From Caballeronia sp. Lep1P3 (GTDB lineage: Bacteria > Pseudomonadota > Gammaproteobacteria > Burkholderiales > Burkholderiaceae), in contig NZ_CP084265.1 in the NCBI RefSeq assembly GCF_022879595.1, positions 2,046,001-2,110,000 on the forward strand: 64,000 bases of DNA, read 5' to 3'. The translations under genes were made by a program, and so were the position numbers. This document shows positions 50,391 to 63,457 of the stretch, in pieces (position 1 is the first letter of the stretch; each line of letters opens with the position of its first letter). The notes below the pieces were generated by a model. It saw nothing but the letters and a program-made list of their open reading frames with translations. It made no database searches and had not been told where the DNA came from.

Positions 50391-52421
50391 TCAGATGTCC
50401 GCTTCGACCTCGTTGCCCTTCTCTTCGAGCCAGCTTCGGCGCGACGCCGCTTCGCCCTTGCCCATCAGCATCGTCATGCGCGAGACGGTGAGATCGAAGC
50501 CGAGATCGCCGAGACCGACCGGCAGCAGGCGGCGCGTGTCGGGGTTCATCGTCGTGTCCCACAGCTGTTCCGCGCTCATTTCGCCGAGGCCCTTGAAGCG
50601 GCTGATGCTCCATTGCGTCTCGCGCACGCCGTCCTTGCGCAGCTTGTCGAGAATCGCTTCCAGTTCGCCTTCGTCGAGTGCGTAGAGCTTCTGCGCGGGC
50701 TTCTTGCCGCGCGCGGGAGCATCGACGCGAAAGAGCGGCGGACGCGCGACGCATACGTGACCGCGTTCGATCAGTTGCGGAAAATGCTTGAAGAAAAGCG
50801 TGAGCAGGAGAACCTGAATGTGCGCGCCGTCGACGTCCGCGTCCGACAGGATGCAAATCTTGCCGTAGCGCAAGTTCGAGAGATCGATCTGATCGTCGGG
50901 ACTATGCGGATCGACGCCGATGGCCACCGCGATGTCATGCACTTCGTTGTTCGCGAAGAGGCGGTCGCGCTCGGTTTCCCAGGTGTTCAGCACCTTGCCG
51001 CGCAACGGCAAAATGGCCTGGAATTCCTTGTCGCGGCCCATCTTCGCGGACCCGCCCGCCGAATCGCCTTCCACGAGGAAAAGCTCGTTGCGCGTGATGT
51101 CCGTCGATTCGCAATCGGTCAGCTTGCCCGGCAGCACGGCCACGCCCGAACTCTTGCGCTTCTCGACCTTCTGGCCCGCGCGCGTGCGCGCCTGCGCCTG
51201 CCGGATGACGAGTTCCGCGAGCTTCTTGCCGTATTCGACGTGCTGATTCAGCCACAACTCCAGCGCCGGCCGCAAGAACGACGACACGAGCTTCACGGCA
51301 TCGCGGCTATTGAGGCGTTCCTTGATCTGCCCCTGGAACTGCGGGTCCAGCACCTTCGCCGACAGCACGAACGACACGCGCGCGAACACGTCTTCCGCGA
51401 GCAGCTTGACGCCCTTCGGTTGCAGATTGTGAATCTCGACGAAGTTCTTGACCGCCTGAAAGAGACCGTCGCGCAGGCCGGATTCGTGCGTGCCGCCCGC
51501 GGGCGTCGGAATGAGGTTCACATATGATTCGCGCAAGAGCGGCCCTTCCTCGCTCCACGCGACGACCCACGACGCGCCCTCGCCTTCGGCGAACGTTTCT
51601 TCGTTCGAGCGCGAGTTGTCCGCATAGCGCTCGCCTTCGAAAAGCGGAATCAGCAGTTCGCTGCCGCCCATCCCTTCGAGCAGATAGCCGCGCAGACCGT
51701 CCTCGTACTTCCACGTCTGACGCTCGCCCGTCTTCTCGACGACGAGCACCACTTCGACGCCCGGCAGCAGCACGGCCTTCGAGCGCAAGAGGCGCTGCAA
51801 CTCGCCCTGCGGCAGATTGGGGGAATCGAAATACTTCGCGTTCGGCCATGCGCGCACGCGCGTGCCGGTCTTCTTCTCGCCGCGTTCGACGGAACGCGTC
51901 GTGAGCGGCTCGATGACATCGCCGTTGGCGAACGCGAGTTGCGCGACCTTGTTGTCGCGCCAGACCGTGACTTCGAGGCGCGTGGCGAGCGCGTTCGTCA
52001 CCGATACGCCGACGCCGTGCAGACCGCCCGAGAACGTGTACGCGCCGCCCGCGGCCTTGTCGAACTTGCCGCCCGCGTGCAGCCGCGTGAACACGATCTC
52101 GACGACCGGCACGCCTTCTTCCGGGTGCATGCCGAACGGAATCCCGCGGCCGTCGTCTTCCACGGACACCGAGTTGTCCGTGTGCAGCGTGACCGTGATC
52201 TGCTTGCCGTAGCCGCCGAGCGCTTCGTCCGAGGCGTTGTCGATGACTTCCTGCACGATGTGCAGCGGATTCTCGGTGCGCGTGTACATGCCCGGCCGCT
52301 GCTTGACCGGCTCGAGTCCCTTCAGCACCTTGATCGATGCTTCGCTGTAACCGGCCGCCTTCGCGCTCATCGCGCGCTTCGTGGTGACTGCTTCGGCCGC
52401 ACTGGATTTTTTCGTGGACAT
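50391..52421 (-). CDS. parE: DNA topoisomerase IV subunit B
   Basis: ATPase subunit of topoisomerase IV. The 676-residue product has QRPGMYTRTENPLHIVQEVI, the GHKL sites DNASDEALGGYGK and VEDDGRGIPFGMHPEEGVPV, GGLHGVGVSVTNAL, then the TOPRIM motifs LFLVEGDSAGGSAKMGRDK and LSDADVDGAHIQVLLLTLFF, and the C-terminal GLGEMSAEQLWDTTMNP. A basic N-terminal extension (KKSSAAEAVTTKRAMSAK) precedes the core. First gene of the parE-parC unit; a GyrB assignment is excluded by length and context. Confidence 0.94.
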   Translation of the reverse strand: MSTKKSSAAEAVTTKRAMSAKAAGYSEASIKVLKGLEPVKQRPGMYTRTENPLHIVQEVIDNASDEALGGYGKQITVTLHTDNSVSVEDDGRGIPFGMHPEEGVPVVEIVFTRLHAGGKFDKAAGGAYTFSGGLHGVGVSVTNALATRLEVTVWRDNKVAQLAFANGDVIEPLTTRSVERGEKKTGTRVRAWPNAKYFDSPNLPQGELQRLLRSKAVLLPGVEVVLVVEKTGERQTWKYEDGLRGYLLEGMGGSELLIPLFEGERYADNSRSNEETFAEGEGASWVVAWSEEGPLLRESYVNLIPTPAGGTHESGLRDGLFQAVKNFVEIHNLQPKGVKLLAEDVFARVSFVLSAKVLDPQFQGQIKERLNSRDAVKLVSSFLRPALELWLNQHVEYGKKLAELVIRQAQARTRAGQKVEKRKSSGVAVLPGKLTDCESTDITRNELFLVEGDSAGGSAKMGRDKEFQAILPLRGKVLNTWETERDRLFANNEVHDIAVAIGVDPHSPDDQIDLSNLRYGKICILSDADVDGAHIQVLLLTLFFKHFPQLIERGHVCVARPPLFRVDAPARGKKPAQKLYALDEGELEAILDKLRKDGVRETQWSISRFKGLGEMSAEQLWDTTMNPDTRRLLPVGLGDLGFDLTVSRMTMLMGKGEAASRRSWLEEKGNEVEADI

Positions 52422-57155: not shown

Positions 57156-57360
57156 GAGCGCATGAGCCGTGAGGCGCGACGAAGGTCGTCGCATTATCGA
57201 GGCAACGGCTCTCGCGTGCAAAGCGTTACCGAACGCCGGCGCAGCGAACCGTTTCGCGATCCGCGCGTGGCCGTGCCGCGCGGCGGCGTGACGGGTACAT
57301 TCGCCGCATCTACACTGCAAACGGTCGCGATGTCCACGATTCCAGCCACGGAGAAACCCG

Positions 57361-58491
57361 ATGCGCCCTGCATGCGGTTCGTCCCCTTCCCTCGCGAGCG
57401 CGCCGCCGGACGAGGGCGCGATCATTTCTCCCCTTTGGACCGACGCGCATTTCCGGCTGCTCGTCGAGTCCGTCGAGGATTACGCCATCTTTCTGCTCGA
57501 CGAACGCGGCAACATCGTCACATGGAACAACGGCGCCCGGCGCATCAAGGGCTATGATGCGCACGAGATCGTGGGCCGGCATTTCTCCGTGTTCTATCCG
57601 TCCGACGATATCGCCGCGAAGAAGCCGCAAAAGGAACTGGAGGCCGCCGCATCGAAGGGCCGCATCGAAGACGAAGGCTGGCGCGTGCGCAAGGACGCGA
57701 CGCGCTTCTGGGCCAACGTCGTCGTCACGGCGTTGCGCGATGAAAACGGCAAGCTGATCGGTTTCGCGAAGGTCACGCGCGACATGACGGACCGCTTGCG
57801 CCTCGCCGAACTGCAGCATGCGCGCGAACTGTCCGCGCATGTTCAGGCGGCGCTGGAGGACGAACGGGCCACCATTTCCCGCGAACTGCACGACGATCTC
57901 GGCCAGCAGCTCGCGGCGCTCAAGATGCAGATCGCCGCACTGGATTCACAGCGCGAAGGCGCCGGGTTCGCGCGTCATTCGCTTGCCGACACGCGGGGCA
58001 TCCGGGCGCAGATCGACACGGTCATCGCTTCGCTCAGACGAATCGCCGCGGGTTTGCGTCCGCCGGTGCTCGACGATCTCGGCCTTTTCGCCGCGATCGA
58101 ATGGCTCGTCAACGATTTCCGCCGCCGTCACGGTCTTTCGATCGCGCTCGATCTCGACGGCGAAGAGATGGAACTCGGCGGCGATGCGGCGACTTCCATG
58201 TTTCGTCTCGTGCAGGAAGCGCTCACAAACGTCGTGCGGCACGCGCACGCGAGCGAAGTGCGTATCGAGGCAAGCTGCGCGGGCGACCGCTGCAGGCTGA
58301 CGATCGAGGACAACGGCCGTGGCGCCGATCTCGCCAAGCCTCGCGCGGCGCATGCGTTCGGCCTGCTCGGGATGGGCGAGCGCGTGAGGCAGCTCGGCGG
58401 CGTCATCGCGTTTCGAAGCGTTCCGGGCAACGGCTTTCGCATCGACGTCGACATTCCCTTGAGCGGACTCGCGCAAGACGCTGGCCAATGA
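57361..58491 (+). CDS. PAS-domain sensor histidine kinase (HisKA_3 type)
   Basis: Cytosolic two-component kinase of 376 residues. A PAS domain at about 30-140 (FRLLVESVEDYAIFLLDERG, NIVTWNNGARRIKGYDAHEI, GRHFSVFYP) is followed by a short coiled coil, the HisKA_3 dimerisation helix with phospho-His in SRELHDDLGQQLAALKMQI (His about 177), and a HATPase domain (EALTNVVRHAHAS, DNGRGADL, GLLGMGERVRQLGG). This is the NarX/DegS-like class whose partners are NarL-type regulators; none adjoins, so it is an orphan. GGAGAAACCCG precedes the ATG. The PAS ligand is not evident. Confidence 0.9.
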   Translation: MRPACGSSPSLASAPPDEGAIISPLWTDAHFRLLVESVEDYAIFLLDERGNIVTWNNGARRIKGYDAHEIVGRHFSVFYPSDDIAAKKPQKELEAAASKGRIEDEGWRVRKDATRFWANVVVTALRDENGKLIGFAKVTRDMTDRLRLAELQHARELSAHVQAALEDERATISRELHDDLGQQLAALKMQIAALDSQREGAGFARHSLADTRGIRAQIDTVIASLRRIAAGLRPPVLDDLGLFAAIEWLVNDFRRRHGLSIALDLDGEEMELGGDAATSMFRLVQEALTNVVRHAHASEVRIEASCAGDRCRLTIEDNGRGADLAKPRAAHAFGLLGMGERVRQLGGVIAFRSVPGNGFRIDVDIPLSGLAQDAGQ

Positions 58492-58512
58492 GCGAGCCGC
58501 TGCGCCCGCGTT

Positions 58513-58866
58513 CTACACCGCGATCGTTCTTGCGGCCTCGAGCCCGATCCACGCGATGCCTTCGCGCAATCCGGCGATCACCGCGTCGCGTTCGCTATCG
58601 AGCGTGCATGCGTGGCAGAAGCGATGCACGAAGCGGCCGCCTTCCACGTTGCGATGCTCGACGCCGATCGAACACACGAAGCCTTGCGGCCCCTGTGCCG
58701 TGGTGCAAGTGACGGTCCAGTCGCTCCTTCCACCTTCCGTTTGATTCGACTCTATCGGCGTGCCGCCCGAAGCCTTCGAGCAGGTCAACCGGACCCTTCG
58801 ATGCCTTAGCGGATTCGCTTGATCCCGGTCAATCCGCTCGGCGACGCCTTCGGTAAAGTCGTTCAC
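58513..58866 (-). CDS. Hypothetical protein, 117 aa
   Basis: An unrecognised soluble protein with Cys-rich middle (LTCSKASGGTPIE, WTVTCTTAQGPQGFVCSIGV, RFVHRFCHACTLDSERDAVI) and an amphipathic C-terminus. The GTG at 58866 has GGTGG 6 nt upstream. An ATG at 58893 also exists but would overlap the start codon of the divergent UspA gene (shared CATG), so I prefer the shorter form. It is convergent with the PAS kinase gene. Real coding status is likely but not proven. Confidence 0.55.
   Translation of the reverse strand: MNDFTEGVAERIDRDQANPLRHRRVRLTCSKASGGTPIESNQTEGGRSDWTVTCTTAQGPQGFVCSIGVEHRNVEGGRFVHRFCHACTLDSERDAVIAGLREGIAWIGLEAARTIAV
58819..58832. promoter_or_regulatory. ANR/FNR-type box upstream of the UspA gene
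   Basis: TTGATCCCGGTCAA fits TTGAY-N4-RTCAA with dyad symmetry. Its centre is about 66 bp before the UspA ATG, as expected for an activator site near -41.5. Such sites are bound by ANR/FNR-type oxygen-sensing regulators. Confidence 0.68.
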
Positions 58867-58891
58867 GACAAACCACCGTGACGAGCCCGCC

Positions 58892-59383
58892 ATGTACACA
58901 CGCATCCTCGCCCCCATCGACGGCAGCGCGACTTCCGCGCACGCGTTCGACGAAGCCCTCAAGATCGCGCGCGACAATCGCGCCGAGTTGCAGCCGCTGT
59001 TCGTGATCGATCTCCAGCCGGTCGCCTACGACGCCGCCGCCGCGTGCTATTCCGACATGCGCGAATCCATGCTCGACGAAGGCCGGCGCCTGACATCCGA
59101 TGCGGCGAAGCGCATGGATCGCGAGGGCGTGAGCGGCAAGCCGCGCATCGCCGAAGTCGAACTGACGGGCGACGACATCGCCCAGCGCATCTGTCATTGC
59201 GCGCAGGACTTCGGCGCCGACCTCGTCGTGATGGGCACGCATGGCCGGCGCGGCTGGCGGCGGCTCGTGCTGGGCAGCGTCGCCGAGCGTTTCCTGCGAC
59301 TTTCGCGCTGGCCGGTATTGCTCGTGCCGGGCCACGACGCCGAGGAAATCGCGCGCCGGCAGGCCGCTGCCGAAAGCGACTGA
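58892..59383 (+). CDS. Universal stress protein, UspA family
   Basis: A 163-residue nucleotide-binding stress protein. It opens MYTRILAPIDGSATSAHAFD and has the ATP motif G-x2-G-x9-GS in GTHGRRGWRRLVLGSVAERF followed by WPVLLVPG. Such proteins are induced by low oxygen and stationary phase. Transcription is probably controlled through the ANR-type box at 58819-58832. Its start codon shares CATG with a possible reverse-strand start. Confidence 0.93.
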   Translation: MYTRILAPIDGSATSAHAFDEALKIARDNRAELQPLFVIDLQPVAYDAAAACYSDMRESMLDEGRRLTSDAAKRMDREGVSGKPRIAEVELTGDDIAQRICHCAQDFGADLVVMGTHGRRGWRRLVLGSVAERFLRLSRWPVLLVPGHDAEEIARRQAAAESD

Positions 59384-59572
59384 ACGGCCCGGCGCGGCCA
59401 GCGTCGGCATTGCGCTCATCGCGCGCGCGGGCGGTGCGGTTCTTCGCGGGATCGAAAAATCGCTCGGCGATGCGCCACCGGAAGCCGCGCGTGCCGCGAC
59501 GTCCGCATTCCCCAGCGGGCGCGGCTGAAGAACCGCTAGCGTTCGACGTATCCAGTTCGGCCGCCTCTCGCC

Positions 59573-60562
59573 TCACTCGTGGATACGCAGCACAGCGGCG
59601 CCGACCATGCGCCCTTCGCGGAGATCCGCGAGCGCCACGTTCGCGTCGGCGAGCGCGTACACGCGCGTTTGCACATGAAGCGCAATGGCCGCCGCGCGCG
59701 CCATGAATTCCTGCCCGTCCGCGCGCGTCAGGTTCGCAACCGACGCGATGCGCCGCTCCTGCCACAGCAGCGAATACGGGAATGCGGGAATGTCGCTCAT
59801 ATGGATGCCGCCGCACACGACGATGCCGCCCTTGCCCAGCGCCGCGAGCGCCGCCGGCACGAGCGCGCCGGCGGGCGCGAAGATGAGCGCGGCGTCGAGT
59901 TCGGCAGGCGGGCGTTCGTCGCTGCCGCCGGCCCATGTCGCGCCCAGTCGCATAGCGAGCGATTGAGCGGCGCTGTCGCCGCGGCGCGTGAAGGCGTAGA
60001 CGGTGCGGCCCTCGTGCCGCGCGATCTGCGCGACGATATGCGCTGCCGCGCCGAAACCGTAGATGCCGATGCGCTCGGCGTCGCCCGCCATTTTCAGCGT
60101 CCGGTAGCCGATGAGTCCGGCGCACAGGAGCGGCGCGGCCTCGATGTCCGAATAGCGTGATGGAAGATGCAGGCAGAAGCGGCTCTCCGCGACCATGCGC
60201 TCGGCATAGCCGCCATTGAGCGTGTAGCCGGTGAAGCCCGGCGCATCGCACAGATTCTCGCGATGCGTCGAGCAGTAGCGGCAGCGCCCGCACGCATGGC
60301 CGAGCCACGGCACGCCGACGCGGTCGCCCGGCGCGAAGCCTTCCACGCCCGCGCCGATCGCGGCCACGCGTCCGACGACTTCATGCCCCGGAATGACCGG
60401 CCGCCTCGGATGCGCGAGCTCGCCATCGACGACATGGAGATCGGTGCGGCATACGCCGCACGCGATCACATCGATCAGAAGCTGCCCCGGACCGGCAACG
60501 GGGTCGTCGGTATCGGCGGCGCGCAATCGCGGGCCGGTTCCGTCGAAGAGCATTGCGCGCAT
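59573..60562 (-). CDS. Zinc-dependent alcohol dehydrogenase (AdhA-like)
   Basis: Medium-chain, zinc-containing NAD(P)-dependent alcohol dehydrogenase of 329 residues. It has catalytic-zinc ligands in CGVCRTDLHVVDGE and VIPGHEVVGRV, a structural-zinc lobe CGRCRYCSTHRENLC, and the cofactor region RIGIYGFGAAAHIVAQIARH. It resembles AdhA-type enzymes of the low-oxygen gene set. It is 43 bp downstream of the DUF1488 gene and so probably belongs to that ANR-boxed transcript. The substrate (ethanol or other alcohol) is not established. Confidence 0.9.
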   Translation of the reverse strand: MRAMLFDGTGPRLRAADTDDPVAGPGQLLIDVIACGVCRTDLHVVDGELAHPRRPVIPGHEVVGRVAAIGAGVEGFAPGDRVGVPWLGHACGRCRYCSTHRENLCDAPGFTGYTLNGGYAERMVAESRFCLHLPSRYSDIEAAPLLCAGLIGYRTLKMAGDAERIGIYGFGAAAHIVAQIARHEGRTVYAFTRRGDSAAQSLAMRLGATWAGGSDERPPAELDAALIFAPAGALVPAALAALGKGGIVVCGGIHMSDIPAFPYSLLWQERRIASVANLTRADGQEFMARAAAIALHVQTRVYALADANVALADLREGRMVGAAVLRIHE

Positions 60563-60605
60563 CGTCCGCCTCCGTGCGATGCGTTAGTGTTGCCTTAGTG
60601 CTGCA

Positions 60606-60977
60606 TTAGCGATGTGCGCTGCGTTCGCGCGGCGCCGCGTTGTCTGCGGGATGAGCGTCGTCGTGCAGCTTCCAGTCGCGATGCGGGTGCAACGCGGCCG
60701 TGCCGTCGCTGAAGCGGAAGTAGCCGCTGCGCAGCTTGACCGGCGTGCGCCCCACGCTCGTCAGCAATTGCTCGGCGGCGCCTTCGATATCCGCGCGATG
60801 CGTGTCGAACGCGTGCAGCAAGTCGTCCACCCGCGACGACGCCGCGCCGAAGTGATCCATCAACGCCTCGGCGGAAATGGTGCACGGGATACGTTCGCCG
60901 TCGGCGAGCGCGTAGAAAAGGAGCGCGGGTTCGTCGCCCCGATAAAGCGGCGCGCCTTCCAGGAATGCGATGTCCAT
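60606..60977 (-). CDS. DUF1488 family protein
   Basis: A 123-residue protein starting MDIAFLEGAPLYRGDEPALL with FYALADGERIPCTISAEALM and AASSRVDDLLHAFDTHRADI, the DUF1488 pattern, of unknown role. The C-terminal part (GRTPVKLRSGYFRFSDG) is an extension. It precedes the alcohol dehydrogenase gene and lies downstream of the ANR-type box at 61042-61055, whose centre is about 71 bp before the ATG. Low-oxygen induction is inferred. Confidence 0.78.
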   Translation of the reverse strand: MDIAFLEGAPLYRGDEPALLFYALADGERIPCTISAEALMDHFGAASSRVDDLLHAFDTHRADIEGAAEQLLTSVGRTPVKLRSGYFRFSDGTAALHPHRDWKLHDDAHPADNAAPRERSAHR

Positions 60978-61041
60978 GATGAAAGTCCTCACATCAGGTC
61001 GCGATACCCAACCAGTGTCCGCCCGCATGCGCCCGCCGCCG

Positions 61042-61055
61042 TTGATACAGATCAA
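61042..61055. promoter_or_regulatory. ANR/FNR-type box upstream of the DUF1488-adh unit
   Basis: TTGATACAGATCAA is a perfect consensus TTGAT-N4-ATCAA palindrome, about 71 bp before the DUF1488 ATG on the reverse strand and in the gap after the HPF-like gene. Confidence 0.75.
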
Positions 61056-61202
61056 GGGCATCGCGCGCCCGCGCCAGCATCGTCGTGATGTGTCTTGCGC
61101 GCCATTCGTCGCTGGGACACGTCCGCCTGTTTGCCTGCGCGTGTCCATCGTGCTTTCGCGCACTGGGCCGCCGATGCGTAAGCAAGTAGCGACCGGCAAC
61201 CA

Positions 61203-61517
61203 TCAGCGCGCCGGCGATGGCATGCGCCGCTGCGAAAGCAGGCGCACCGCGTTGTCGAATGCGCGATGAATCGCGATGCGGATGTCCGCGTCCGTGCTCC
61301 GCTGCACCGGCAACAGCTTGAAGTCGCGCGTGACGAGGTCGAGGCGCGCATCGAAAAGGCGGCGCCCGGAGGGATCGCGATAGGCCTCAAGCGTCAGGCG
61401 GCAATCGGCGATGTCTCTTGCGCTGCGCTCGAGCCGCACGAGTTCGATGCCCGCCTCGCGCTCCGCGTCGCTGGAGCCGGCGAATCCGAGAAAGTCGATT
61501 TGCATTCCGAGTCCCAT
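61203..61517 (-). CDS. HPF/RaiA-like short protein (S30EA fold), 104 aa
   Basis: A 104-residue product whose middle follows the ribosome-hibernation factor pattern: ELVRLERSARDIADCRLTLE, DARLDLVTRDFKLLPVQRST and ADIRIAIHRAFDNAVRLLSQ. The basic ribosome-binding face is weak, so a degenerate or specialised HPF is possible. A GGAGG ribosome site is 7 nt before the ATG at 61517; an internal ATG at 61505 exists. It lies in the low-oxygen gene cluster and is divergent from the repeat-bearing stress gene, with an ANR-type box between them. Confidence 0.68.
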   Translation of the reverse strand: MGLGMQIDFLGFAGSSDAEREAGIELVRLERSARDIADCRLTLEAYRDPSGRRLFDARLDLVTRDFKLLPVQRSTDADIRIAIHRAFDNAVRLLSQRRMPSPAR

Positions 61518-61620
61518 GATCCCGCCTCCCCACTCTTTTCTGTTTCCGGAACGCGGGCCATGACTGCCAGCGCCCGGATCGCGGCGTCAGGACATCGTCC
61601 GCTATTTGCGTCGGATGGCT

Positions 61621-61634
61621 TTGACCCACGTCAA
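61621..61634. promoter_or_regulatory. ANR/FNR-type box between the HPF-like and second stress-protein genes
   Basis: TTGACCCACGTCAA fits TTGAY-N4-RTCAA with full dyad symmetry. It lies 104 bp before the HPF-like ATG and 43 bp before the presumed start of the forward stress gene. Confidence 0.62.
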
Positions 61635-61676
61635 GCGCATGCCCGTATCGCCGCGAAAGCACGTTGCCTAGCGCTC

Positions 61677-62624
61677 ATGCGGCTGCGGCTGTGGCGGCTG
61701 GCTCACGAGCGCATCGCGCGGGAGGCGCACGTCGTCGGACTATTCGCCGTGTTCGAGCCCAGCGCGCGCATTCGCTGTGATGGCCGGCACCGCGGACCAC
61801 TACGCGCAGCACGCGGCGTTGCGCCGGAAGCAGTGCGGCGCGATCGAGCGTCTCTTCGCGCGGAGCTTGCGCGCGCCGACGTGCGCGGCGAGTGGATCGA
61901 CACCGACGAGCGCGCCGCCTTCGCCGCGCCGCATTACGCGCGATACGCCGATCTCGTCATCGCGAGCCAGGACGATCCGAACGATCCCGATTCCTTCATC
62001 GGCGATCACTTTGCCGAGACGCTCGTCATGTCGTTGGGGCGTCCGGTACTGTTCGTGCCCTATACGGGCGTCTTCGCGTCGGTGGGAACGCACCCGATGA
62101 TCGCGTGGGACGGCGGGCGCGAAGCGGCGCGCGCCGTCCACCATACGCTGCCGCTGCTCAAGTTCGCCGAACGCGTGACCGTCGTCACGATCGACGCGGA
62201 CCACAGCGAAGCGGCCGGCAAGCGGACCGACGGCGCGGCCATCGCCGCCTGTCTCGCGCGGCATGAGCCGAACGTGGCGGTGTCGCCGGGCGCGGCGGCC
62301 AGCGATGCGCAAGCCGGCGACCTACTGCTCTCGCGCCCGGCCGATCCCGGCGGGAATTTCGGCGGGAATTTCGGCGGGAATTTCGGCGGGAATTTCGGCG
62401 GGAATTTCGGCGGGAATTTCGGCGGGAATTTCGGCGGGAATTTCGGCGCGGATTTCGGCGCGGATTTCGGCGCGGATTTCGGCGCGAATTTCGGCGCGGA
62501 TTTCGGCGCGAATTTCGTCCCGATGCGCGGCTACGGTCATGCGCGCTGGCAGCAGTTCGTGCTCGGCGGCGCCACGCGCACGTTCCTCGCCTCGATGACG
62601 ATGCCCGTGCTGATGTCTCACTGA
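61677..62624 (+). CDS. Universal stress protein with internal repeat expansion, possibly degenerate
   Basis: Two-domain UspA-type product of about 315 residues. The C-terminal half is family-like: HYARYADLVIASQDDPNDPD, RPVLFVPYTGVFASVG, PMIAWDGGREAARAVHHTLP and the ATP-binding end GYGHARWQQFVLGGATRTFL, finishing PVLMSH. A tract of 14 four-residue units (GGNF x8, then GADF/GANF) sits just before GYGHAR. The first Usp strand is missing, and about 30 residues near the N-terminus fit the family better in another frame, as if two compensating shifts had occurred. The start is uncertain; the open frame extends back to 61266. It may be a decaying copy or a functional variant. Confidence 0.55.
   Translation: MRLRLWRLAHERIAREAHVVGLFAVFEPSARIRCDGRHRGPLRAARGVAPEAVRRDRASLRAELARADVRGEWIDTDERAAFAAPHYARYADLVIASQDDPNDPDSFIGDHFAETLVMSLGRPVLFVPYTGVFASVGTHPMIAWDGGREAARAVHHTLPLLKFAERVTVVTIDADHSEAAGKRTDGAAIAACLARHEPNVAVSPGAAASDAQAGDLLLSRPADPGGNFGGNFGGNFGGNFGGNFGGNFGGNFGGNFGADFGADFGADFGANFGADFGANFVPMRGYGHARWQQFVLGGATRTFLASMTMPVLMSH
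62349..62516 (+). repeat. 14 tandem 12-bp repeats inside the stress-protein gene
   Basis: Eight GGCGGGAATTTC units are followed by GGCGCGGATTTC x3, GGCGCGAATTTC, GGCGCGGATTTC and GGCGCGAATTTC. Each is 12 bp, so copy-number change keeps the frame. Encoded units are GGNF, GADF and GANF. Family members normally have a GAD(L/V)-like motif at this place, so the array may have grown from it by slippage. Confidence 0.92.
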
Positions 62625-62659
62625 CGCTTGGGGCGAGCAAAGCCGCCACCCGCTTCCTC

Positions 62660-63457
62660 TCAAACAATGCCCGCGTGCTCCACGACGAGCCACGCGGACC
62701 ACGCGATGAGCGCGACGCCGAGCGGCTTGCCGATGCGCCTGCCCGCGCGAAGGTTCTTCTCGGCAGCCATGATCGCGCCGAGCGCGAGCATCCATCCGAC
62801 GCTCGCCGTGCCGATAGCGAACATCACGAGCATCAGCGCCCAGCAACAGCCGACGCAGAAAAGGCCGTGACTCGCGCCGAGCACGAAGCTCTCGCGGCGC
62901 GCGCGCCTGCCGCGCCAATGCCCGGCGATGAACATGAGCGGCGAGCGGCATCGGTCGAGACATCGGCGCTTGAGCGCGCTGAACTGATAGAGCCCCGCGA
63001 CGGCGGCAATCGCCGCGCCGATGAGCCAGCCGTTCGCGAGCATCGCGGGCGACCGTTCGACGAGCGCATGAAGCGCCGAATCGAAGCCGTGCGCGACGAG
63101 GCCGAAAAGCGCCCACACGGTTGCATAACCCGCGATCAGCAAGGCGATCAGCGTGCGCCTGTCGTCGCGCGCGACGGTCATGCGCGCGAAAGCGTCGAAG
63201 AGCGGGAACGCGGTCGGCAGCATCATCGCGGCGATCATGACGAGCCATGCGGCGCTGTAGAGCGATGCCGCGAGCGCCGCGCTCGCGCCGGGCAGCGCGC
63301 GGCACAGCGCGCCGATGCCCGCGAGGTCGTTCCAGCTCGCCGTGTGCAGATAGCGCGCATACGGCCCCGCGTCCCATATCCAGAGCACGGTCCACGCGCT
63401 CGCCGTCAACGCGACGAAAAGCGGCGCGAAAAGCCTCGCGCGCGGGCGCCTTTTCAT
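62660..63457 (-). CDS. DUF2182 integral membrane protein
   Basis: A 265-residue inner-membrane protein with about six helices, including AWLVMIAAMMLPTAFPLFDA, GWLIGAAIAAVAGLYQFSAL followed by KRRCLDRCRSP, and SHGLFCVGCCWALMLVMFAI. The paired Cys and MMLP motifs mark DUF2182, annotated as a predicted metal-binding membrane protein of unknown function. Its ATG overlaps the stop of the DUF1326 gene (ATGA); the two families commonly occur together and probably act as one system. Confidence 0.85.
   Translation of the reverse strand: MKRRPRARLFAPLFVALTASAWTVLWIWDAGPYARYLHTASWNDLAGIGALCRALPGASAALAASLYSAAWLVMIAAMMLPTAFPLFDAFARMTVARDDRRTLIALLIAGYATVWALFGLVAHGFDSALHALVERSPAMLANGWLIGAAIAAVAGLYQFSALKRRCLDRCRSPLMFIAGHWRGRRARRESFVLGASHGLFCVGCCWALMLVMFAIGTASVGWMLALGAIMAAEKNLRAGRRIGKPLGVALIAWSAWLVVEHAGIV

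Follow-up and report, generated by a model that had tools for sequence, protein, structure and literature searches.

The window analysed here, a stretch of 64,000 nucleotides from Caballeronia sp. Lep1P3, corresponds to C1:2046001-2110000 of a genome of 6,178,487 bases in 6 contigs, rated 99.95% complete (labelled G000). Near its end, a single-domain universal stress protein with a full-length match to PF00582 (9.2e-31) is encoded on the plus strand at 58892..59383, and is followed on the minus strand by a DUF1488 (PF07369) protein at 60606..61199 and by a 104-aa gene at 61203..61517. A 452-aa open frame, delimited mechanically, then occupies 61266..62624 on the plus strand, and its first ~148 codons align with none of the three relatives tested. 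Within this frame lies what we read as the remnant of a usp gene (61710..62624, plus strand), delimited by a frameshift-aware alignment to the relatives P0001, P0002 and P0003 and by homology search, with a stop codon at its 3' end. The remnant contains an in-frame tandem array of 14 units of 12 bp (62349..62516, plus strand) and the region of the C-terminal strand and ATP motif (62517..62621, plus strand). The downstream gene, at 62660..63457 on the minus strand, shows a near-full-length match to PF09948 (PpoB2). A minus-strand frame crossing the array (62322-63395) was discarded as a protein, since it overlaps this PF09948 gene in another frame.

The array was defined by a repeat finder, a pattern search and a unit-by-unit cut. 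From position 62349, fourteen adjoining units are read in frame, namely eight copies of GGCGGGAATTTC, three of GGCGCGGATTTC, then GGCGCGAATTTC, GGCGCGGATTTC and GGCGCGAATTTC, after which the sequence continues with GTCCCGATGCGC. The corresponding residues are GGNF eight times, GADF three times, GANF, GADF and GANF, the last six units being thus of the GADF/GANF type, followed by VPMRGYGHAR. Tandem Repeats Finder reported positions 62348-62517 with a period of 12, 14.2 copies, 96% matches, no indels and a score of 270, the highest among its 8 rows for the window. The unit number, coordinates and residues that an earlier note had given for this array agree with the repeat finder, the unit cut and the translation. 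With its near-identical tandem units in phase with the frame, the array has the structure of an in-frame VNTR. It resembles bacterial in-frame minisatellites in that near-perfect units of 12 bp, a multiple of three, follow one another head to tail, but differs from them in that its host frame appears broken and that the array is known from one strain. Phase-variation contingency loci have a repeat unit whose length is not divisible by three, or a repeat located in the promoter; a 12-bp unit inside a frame therefore rules out a switch of this type. The three-unit pattern was found in the 6.18-Mb genome at the array site only (12 overlapping matches, none in the reversed-pattern control), and this single locus rules out a mobile repeat. 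Among the titles listed in literature searches, none deals with a GGNF/GADF array.

Other repeats are present in the same genome. A 464-kb sample, made of the window plus twenty 20-kb stretches, contains two arrays with 5 or more copies and a match level of 90% or more, the 12-bp array and a 120-bp repeat of 7.8 copies with 91% matches (L128, 5024-5956, on C1). On C2, a 9-bp array of 36.8 copies with 87% matches and DSH/DPH/NPH residues (L142, 6486-6816, about 306486-306816 of the contig) lies in frame in a 1231-aa open frame, hybrid histidine kinase-like by eye, just before an NLLSNAIKF motif. For in-frame variation in length, this 9-bp array is more promising than the 14-unit usp array.

Only the later part of the 452-aa frame is homologous to the ~279-aa universal stress proteins of other Caballeronia (278 or 279 aa for the relatives P0001-P0018). 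The homology is nevertheless significant, with a phmmer E-value of 1.5e-82 between the host frame and P0001, which itself scores 45.2 bits against PF00582, and the host gene is thus a member of this family by descent. P0002, a UspA-family protein of Caballeronia sp. SL2Y3, shares 52% BLASTP identity with the host frame, the homology extending to the C-terminus. Those members of P0001-P0018 that were displayed have a start, a single GADL-type motif and the motif glycine, whereas the copy of the window has none of the three. When the array was shortened in the protein query, 31 of 61 genomes were matched, and the short frame 62028-62621 matched 572 relatives. At the DNA level, 51 of 58 genus genomes were matched at E 0.001, many by short hits with marginal E-values; the nearest long matches to the remnant (G012 and G069) are 74% identical, and no closer relative of the host gene was seen in these collections, which hold one genome per species. 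Both matches of the subfamily in the source genome at E 0.001 are pieces of the host gene itself, leaving no second copy. Plasmid records gave 32 matches, none of which reaches 80% query cover, and a scan of genome contigs, from which records near the genome of the window may have been left out, gave one distant locus in Mesorhizobium. Among solved structures, a single weak sequence match to P0001 was obtained (4wny).

Several features of the host gene point to decay. The frameshift-aware alignment begins at codon 25 of P0001 or codon 31 of P0002 and P0003 (window 61710 or 61722), so that the start codon and first strand of the family, that is, the first 24-30 codons, are not found in the host gene. 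Two small indels near 61758-61764 and 61858 leave ~33 codons out of frame between them in the alignment with the three relatives. No Pfam family was detected in the 452-aa frame at E 0.001 nor in the segment 61869-62348 at E 0.01, and the host frame thus stays below the Pfam cut-off expected of a functional PF00582 member. The nucleotide-binding motif of universal stress proteins is defined as G-2X-G-9X-G in an excerpt of a structural survey (PMC3673472), and its first glycine is replaced by an arginine in the host gene (MRGYGH). This position is a glycine in all 193 relatives whose motif could be parsed by pattern (11 were unparsed) among the 204 fetched from the best 120 of 362 and the best 120 of 572 matches. 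Five of 52 columns that are invariant in the relatives are changed in the host gene. In the same test on 28 relatives, 17 have no change, 7 have one, 3 have two and one, P0028, also has five while being an ordinary predicted protein. Private changes fall at codon positions 1/2/3 in the proportion 9/10/1, versus 39/21/22 when the 10 nearest of 30 relatives are taken together (p = 0.039, a weak test), a skew in the alignments that hints at relaxed constraint on the host gene.

Other observations are less easily reconciled with a dead gene. From 61525 to the array, the homologous frame contains no stop, whereas the other five frames contain 3-6 stops each; taken together, the two indels bring the sequence back into frame, and it stays in frame through the array. 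This open frame would be explained by recent decay or by some remaining translation. A promoter scan found no promoter, where only 0.1 was expected. In the excerpt cited above, the first motif glycine is missing in 5 of 26 solved universal stress proteins, and a degenerate motif alone is described as no bar to ATP binding (PMC3673472). An AlphaFold model of the frame 61869-62621, computed with 34 relatives, has a mean pLDDT of 68.3. Of the first 14 ten-residue blocks, which precede the array, 12 reach a mean pLDDT of at least 80. The array corresponds to model residues 161-216, of which 161-206 are below 50; values below 50 cover residues 157-206, 113-116 and 224-233, the last stretch lying in the motif region. 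For the final units of the array, the model shows a short helix and the beginning of a strand leading to the motif. Should the frame be translated at all, most of the array would, on the basis of this model, form a flexible insertion at a conserved position.

The surroundings of the gene were compared with two sets of genomes. In seven fetched stretches around usp relatives (L070-L075 and L077), homologues of the DUF1488 protein are present in six and homologues of the 104-aa gene in five, the stretch of G012 having neither. In G067, the 104-aa gene and the usp start are separated by a Usp-like frame of 156 aa and by another of 169 aa, which we take to be flavodoxin-like, versus ~190 bp between the 104-aa gene and the remnant in the window. 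A borrowing of the 5' end of the remnant from another Usp was considered and rejected: the 31-bp match to G012 lies just 3' of the stop of a Usp-like frame, has no Usp-like reading and was judged due to chance. The second set comprises seven near relatives, 91-93% identical to the window over 50391-52421, presumably parE, the nearest being G063 (93%). Within the ~12 kb fetched, they are collinear with the window until ~57.2 kb and then differ, except for one 187-bp match of 70% identity in G065; the PF09948 segment has matches at other places in four of the seven (G073, G077, G063 and G065). The synteny break spans 57225-62650, and the cluster made of a histidine kinase, Usp, ADH, DUF1488 and the usp remnant is missing from that place in the seven near relatives, which on this gene-order comparison suggests an inserted or rearranged segment. 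A tRNA-linked island was discarded, as no tRNA is present in the 64-kb window.

How could such an array have arisen? The earlier note had stated that the family normally has a single motif at this site, and this is borne out: of the 204 relatives fetched (from the best 120 of 362 and of 572 matches), not one contains a tandem pair of G[AG][DN]F units, and a less strict pattern of three G[AG][DNE]x units is matched by P0056 alone. At the array site, intact relatives have ADLGADL or a similar sequence, which is an imperfect 12-bp duplication. Among 24 distinct site sequences, the uninterrupted run of bases that match at a 12-bp offset is 10 long in one, 7 in five and 2-6 in eighteen; the nearest relative, G012, has 3, and 0.3% of 20,000 random 54-bp stretches of the window reach 10. 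These 24 sequences are all unexpanded, the pattern used to collect them allowing just short spacings, so that it would miss an array. Neither strand of the array, taken as single-stranded DNA, folds more strongly than shuffled sequences, and DNA hairpins were therefore rejected as the driver of the expansion. Growth by slippage from an ADLGADL-type duplication is plausible.

The same dodecamer was also encountered elsewhere. A DNA pattern search over the genus found arrays in the source genome and in G028, that is, in 2 of 58 genomes. In G028 (contig C13; L076, 3656-3718), 5.2 copies of the GGCGGGAATTTC dodecamer lie in frame in a gene unrelated to usp, which we assume to be TolC-like. Five units are counted there versus two in the readable loci of its relatives (G025, G020 and G033; 3 readable of 9). 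The G028 array thus shares with that of the window its unit and its phase, but it sits in an unrelated gene whose readable relatives already have two units. The G028 gene also has an in-frame stop just 3' of its array, which is missing in these three relatives. Over the family, 3 of 398 genomes contain the two-unit pattern, each at a site unrelated to the other two, and its reversed control gave none; beyond the source genome, 2 of 397 genomes thus have arrays of the GGNF/GADF-type unit at unrelated sites. In another genus of the family, a short array of GGCGCGAATTTC-type units is found at about 1480-1540 of L093 (G219:C56), a locus that also has a porin-like frame by eye. In the 58 genomes, a looser AAC TTC pattern matched two units once, with one mismatch, and its reversed control gave 7 matches. 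A coincidence would be a plausible reason for the unit shared by the usp remnant and the G028 gene.

Altogether, we propose, with a probability of roughly three in four, that the locus is a degraded usp pseudogene with little or no function, whose 14 units grew by slippage from an imperfect duplication of 12 bp. The disorder predicted for most of the array, the lack of a second copy in the genome and the extra stop in the G028 gene speak for this reading, while the modest seed in the relatives and the absence of both neighbour genes from the G012 stretch speak against it. The simplest explanation for the missing start and N-terminus would be the loss of a segment that lay between the 104-aa gene and usp. 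Constraint on the gene may have been relaxed, replication slippage from an ADLGADL-type seed, before or after the breakage, may have built the array, and the product of the remnant, if any, would be non-functional. The main competing view is that a shortened or remodelled stress protein is still translated, for example from ATG 61677 or ATG 62028, with a C-terminal Usp domain and a flexible loop whose length would vary with the unit number. The stop-free frame, the preservation of the downstream frame by the indels and the array, the well-modelled blocks before the array and the occurrence of single-domain Usps in the window speak for it. We nonetheless consider it improbable, since the first strand and the start are missing, the motif glycine has become an arginine, five invariant residues are changed, no Pfam match is obtained, the motif region is itself among the poorly modelled residues, and the array occurs in none of the fetched relatives (best 120 of 572) of 62028-62621. 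The tunable, working stress protein put forward by the earlier note, with its start and N-terminus missing, ~33 codons out of frame, its motif glycine lost and no Pfam Usp match, is unsupported and appears unlikely. The other half of that proposal, growth from one ancestral motif, remains plausible in view of ADLGADL in the relatives, of the 6 of 24 site sequences with at least 7 matching bases and of the G028 parallel.

One could also wonder whether errors of sequencing or assembly produced the indels and possibly the precise number of units. Both indels are small, and assemblies are known to go wrong at tandem repeats according to an excerpt of PMC6868369; such an error is still very improbable, because the lost 5' end and the residue changes do not look like read errors, the neighbouring genes are near-full-length in Pfam (PF00582, PF09948, DUF1488, ADH_N), and the genome is nearly complete in few contigs. 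The least probable explanation, to which we give hardly any weight, is that the dodecamer is itself a slippage hotspot and would lengthen in any gene in which it happened to appear. It would account for the unrelated locations in the family, for the longer G028 array and for the rarity of the AAC TTC pattern relative to the GGNF/GADF unit, but only three cases are known and the array does not fold more strongly than shuffles. A wider hypothesis, very improbable in our opinion, is that the lineage expands short in-frame repeats in signalling and stress genes, as in the 14-unit and 36.8-copy arrays, and that dodecamers such as GGCGGGAATTTC are sequence-specific hotspots in unrelated genes of the family.

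Since the host gene looks like the decaying remains of a stress protein gene, the repeat probably reflects a stutter in DNA copying and not a means of tuning. This mainly corrects a misreading, in which a broken gene passed for a repeat-expanded stress protein owing to an open frame in a GC-rich genome. If the dodecamer did prove prone to expansion in unrelated genes, it would offer an example on which sequence-specific slippage could be put to the test in bacteria.
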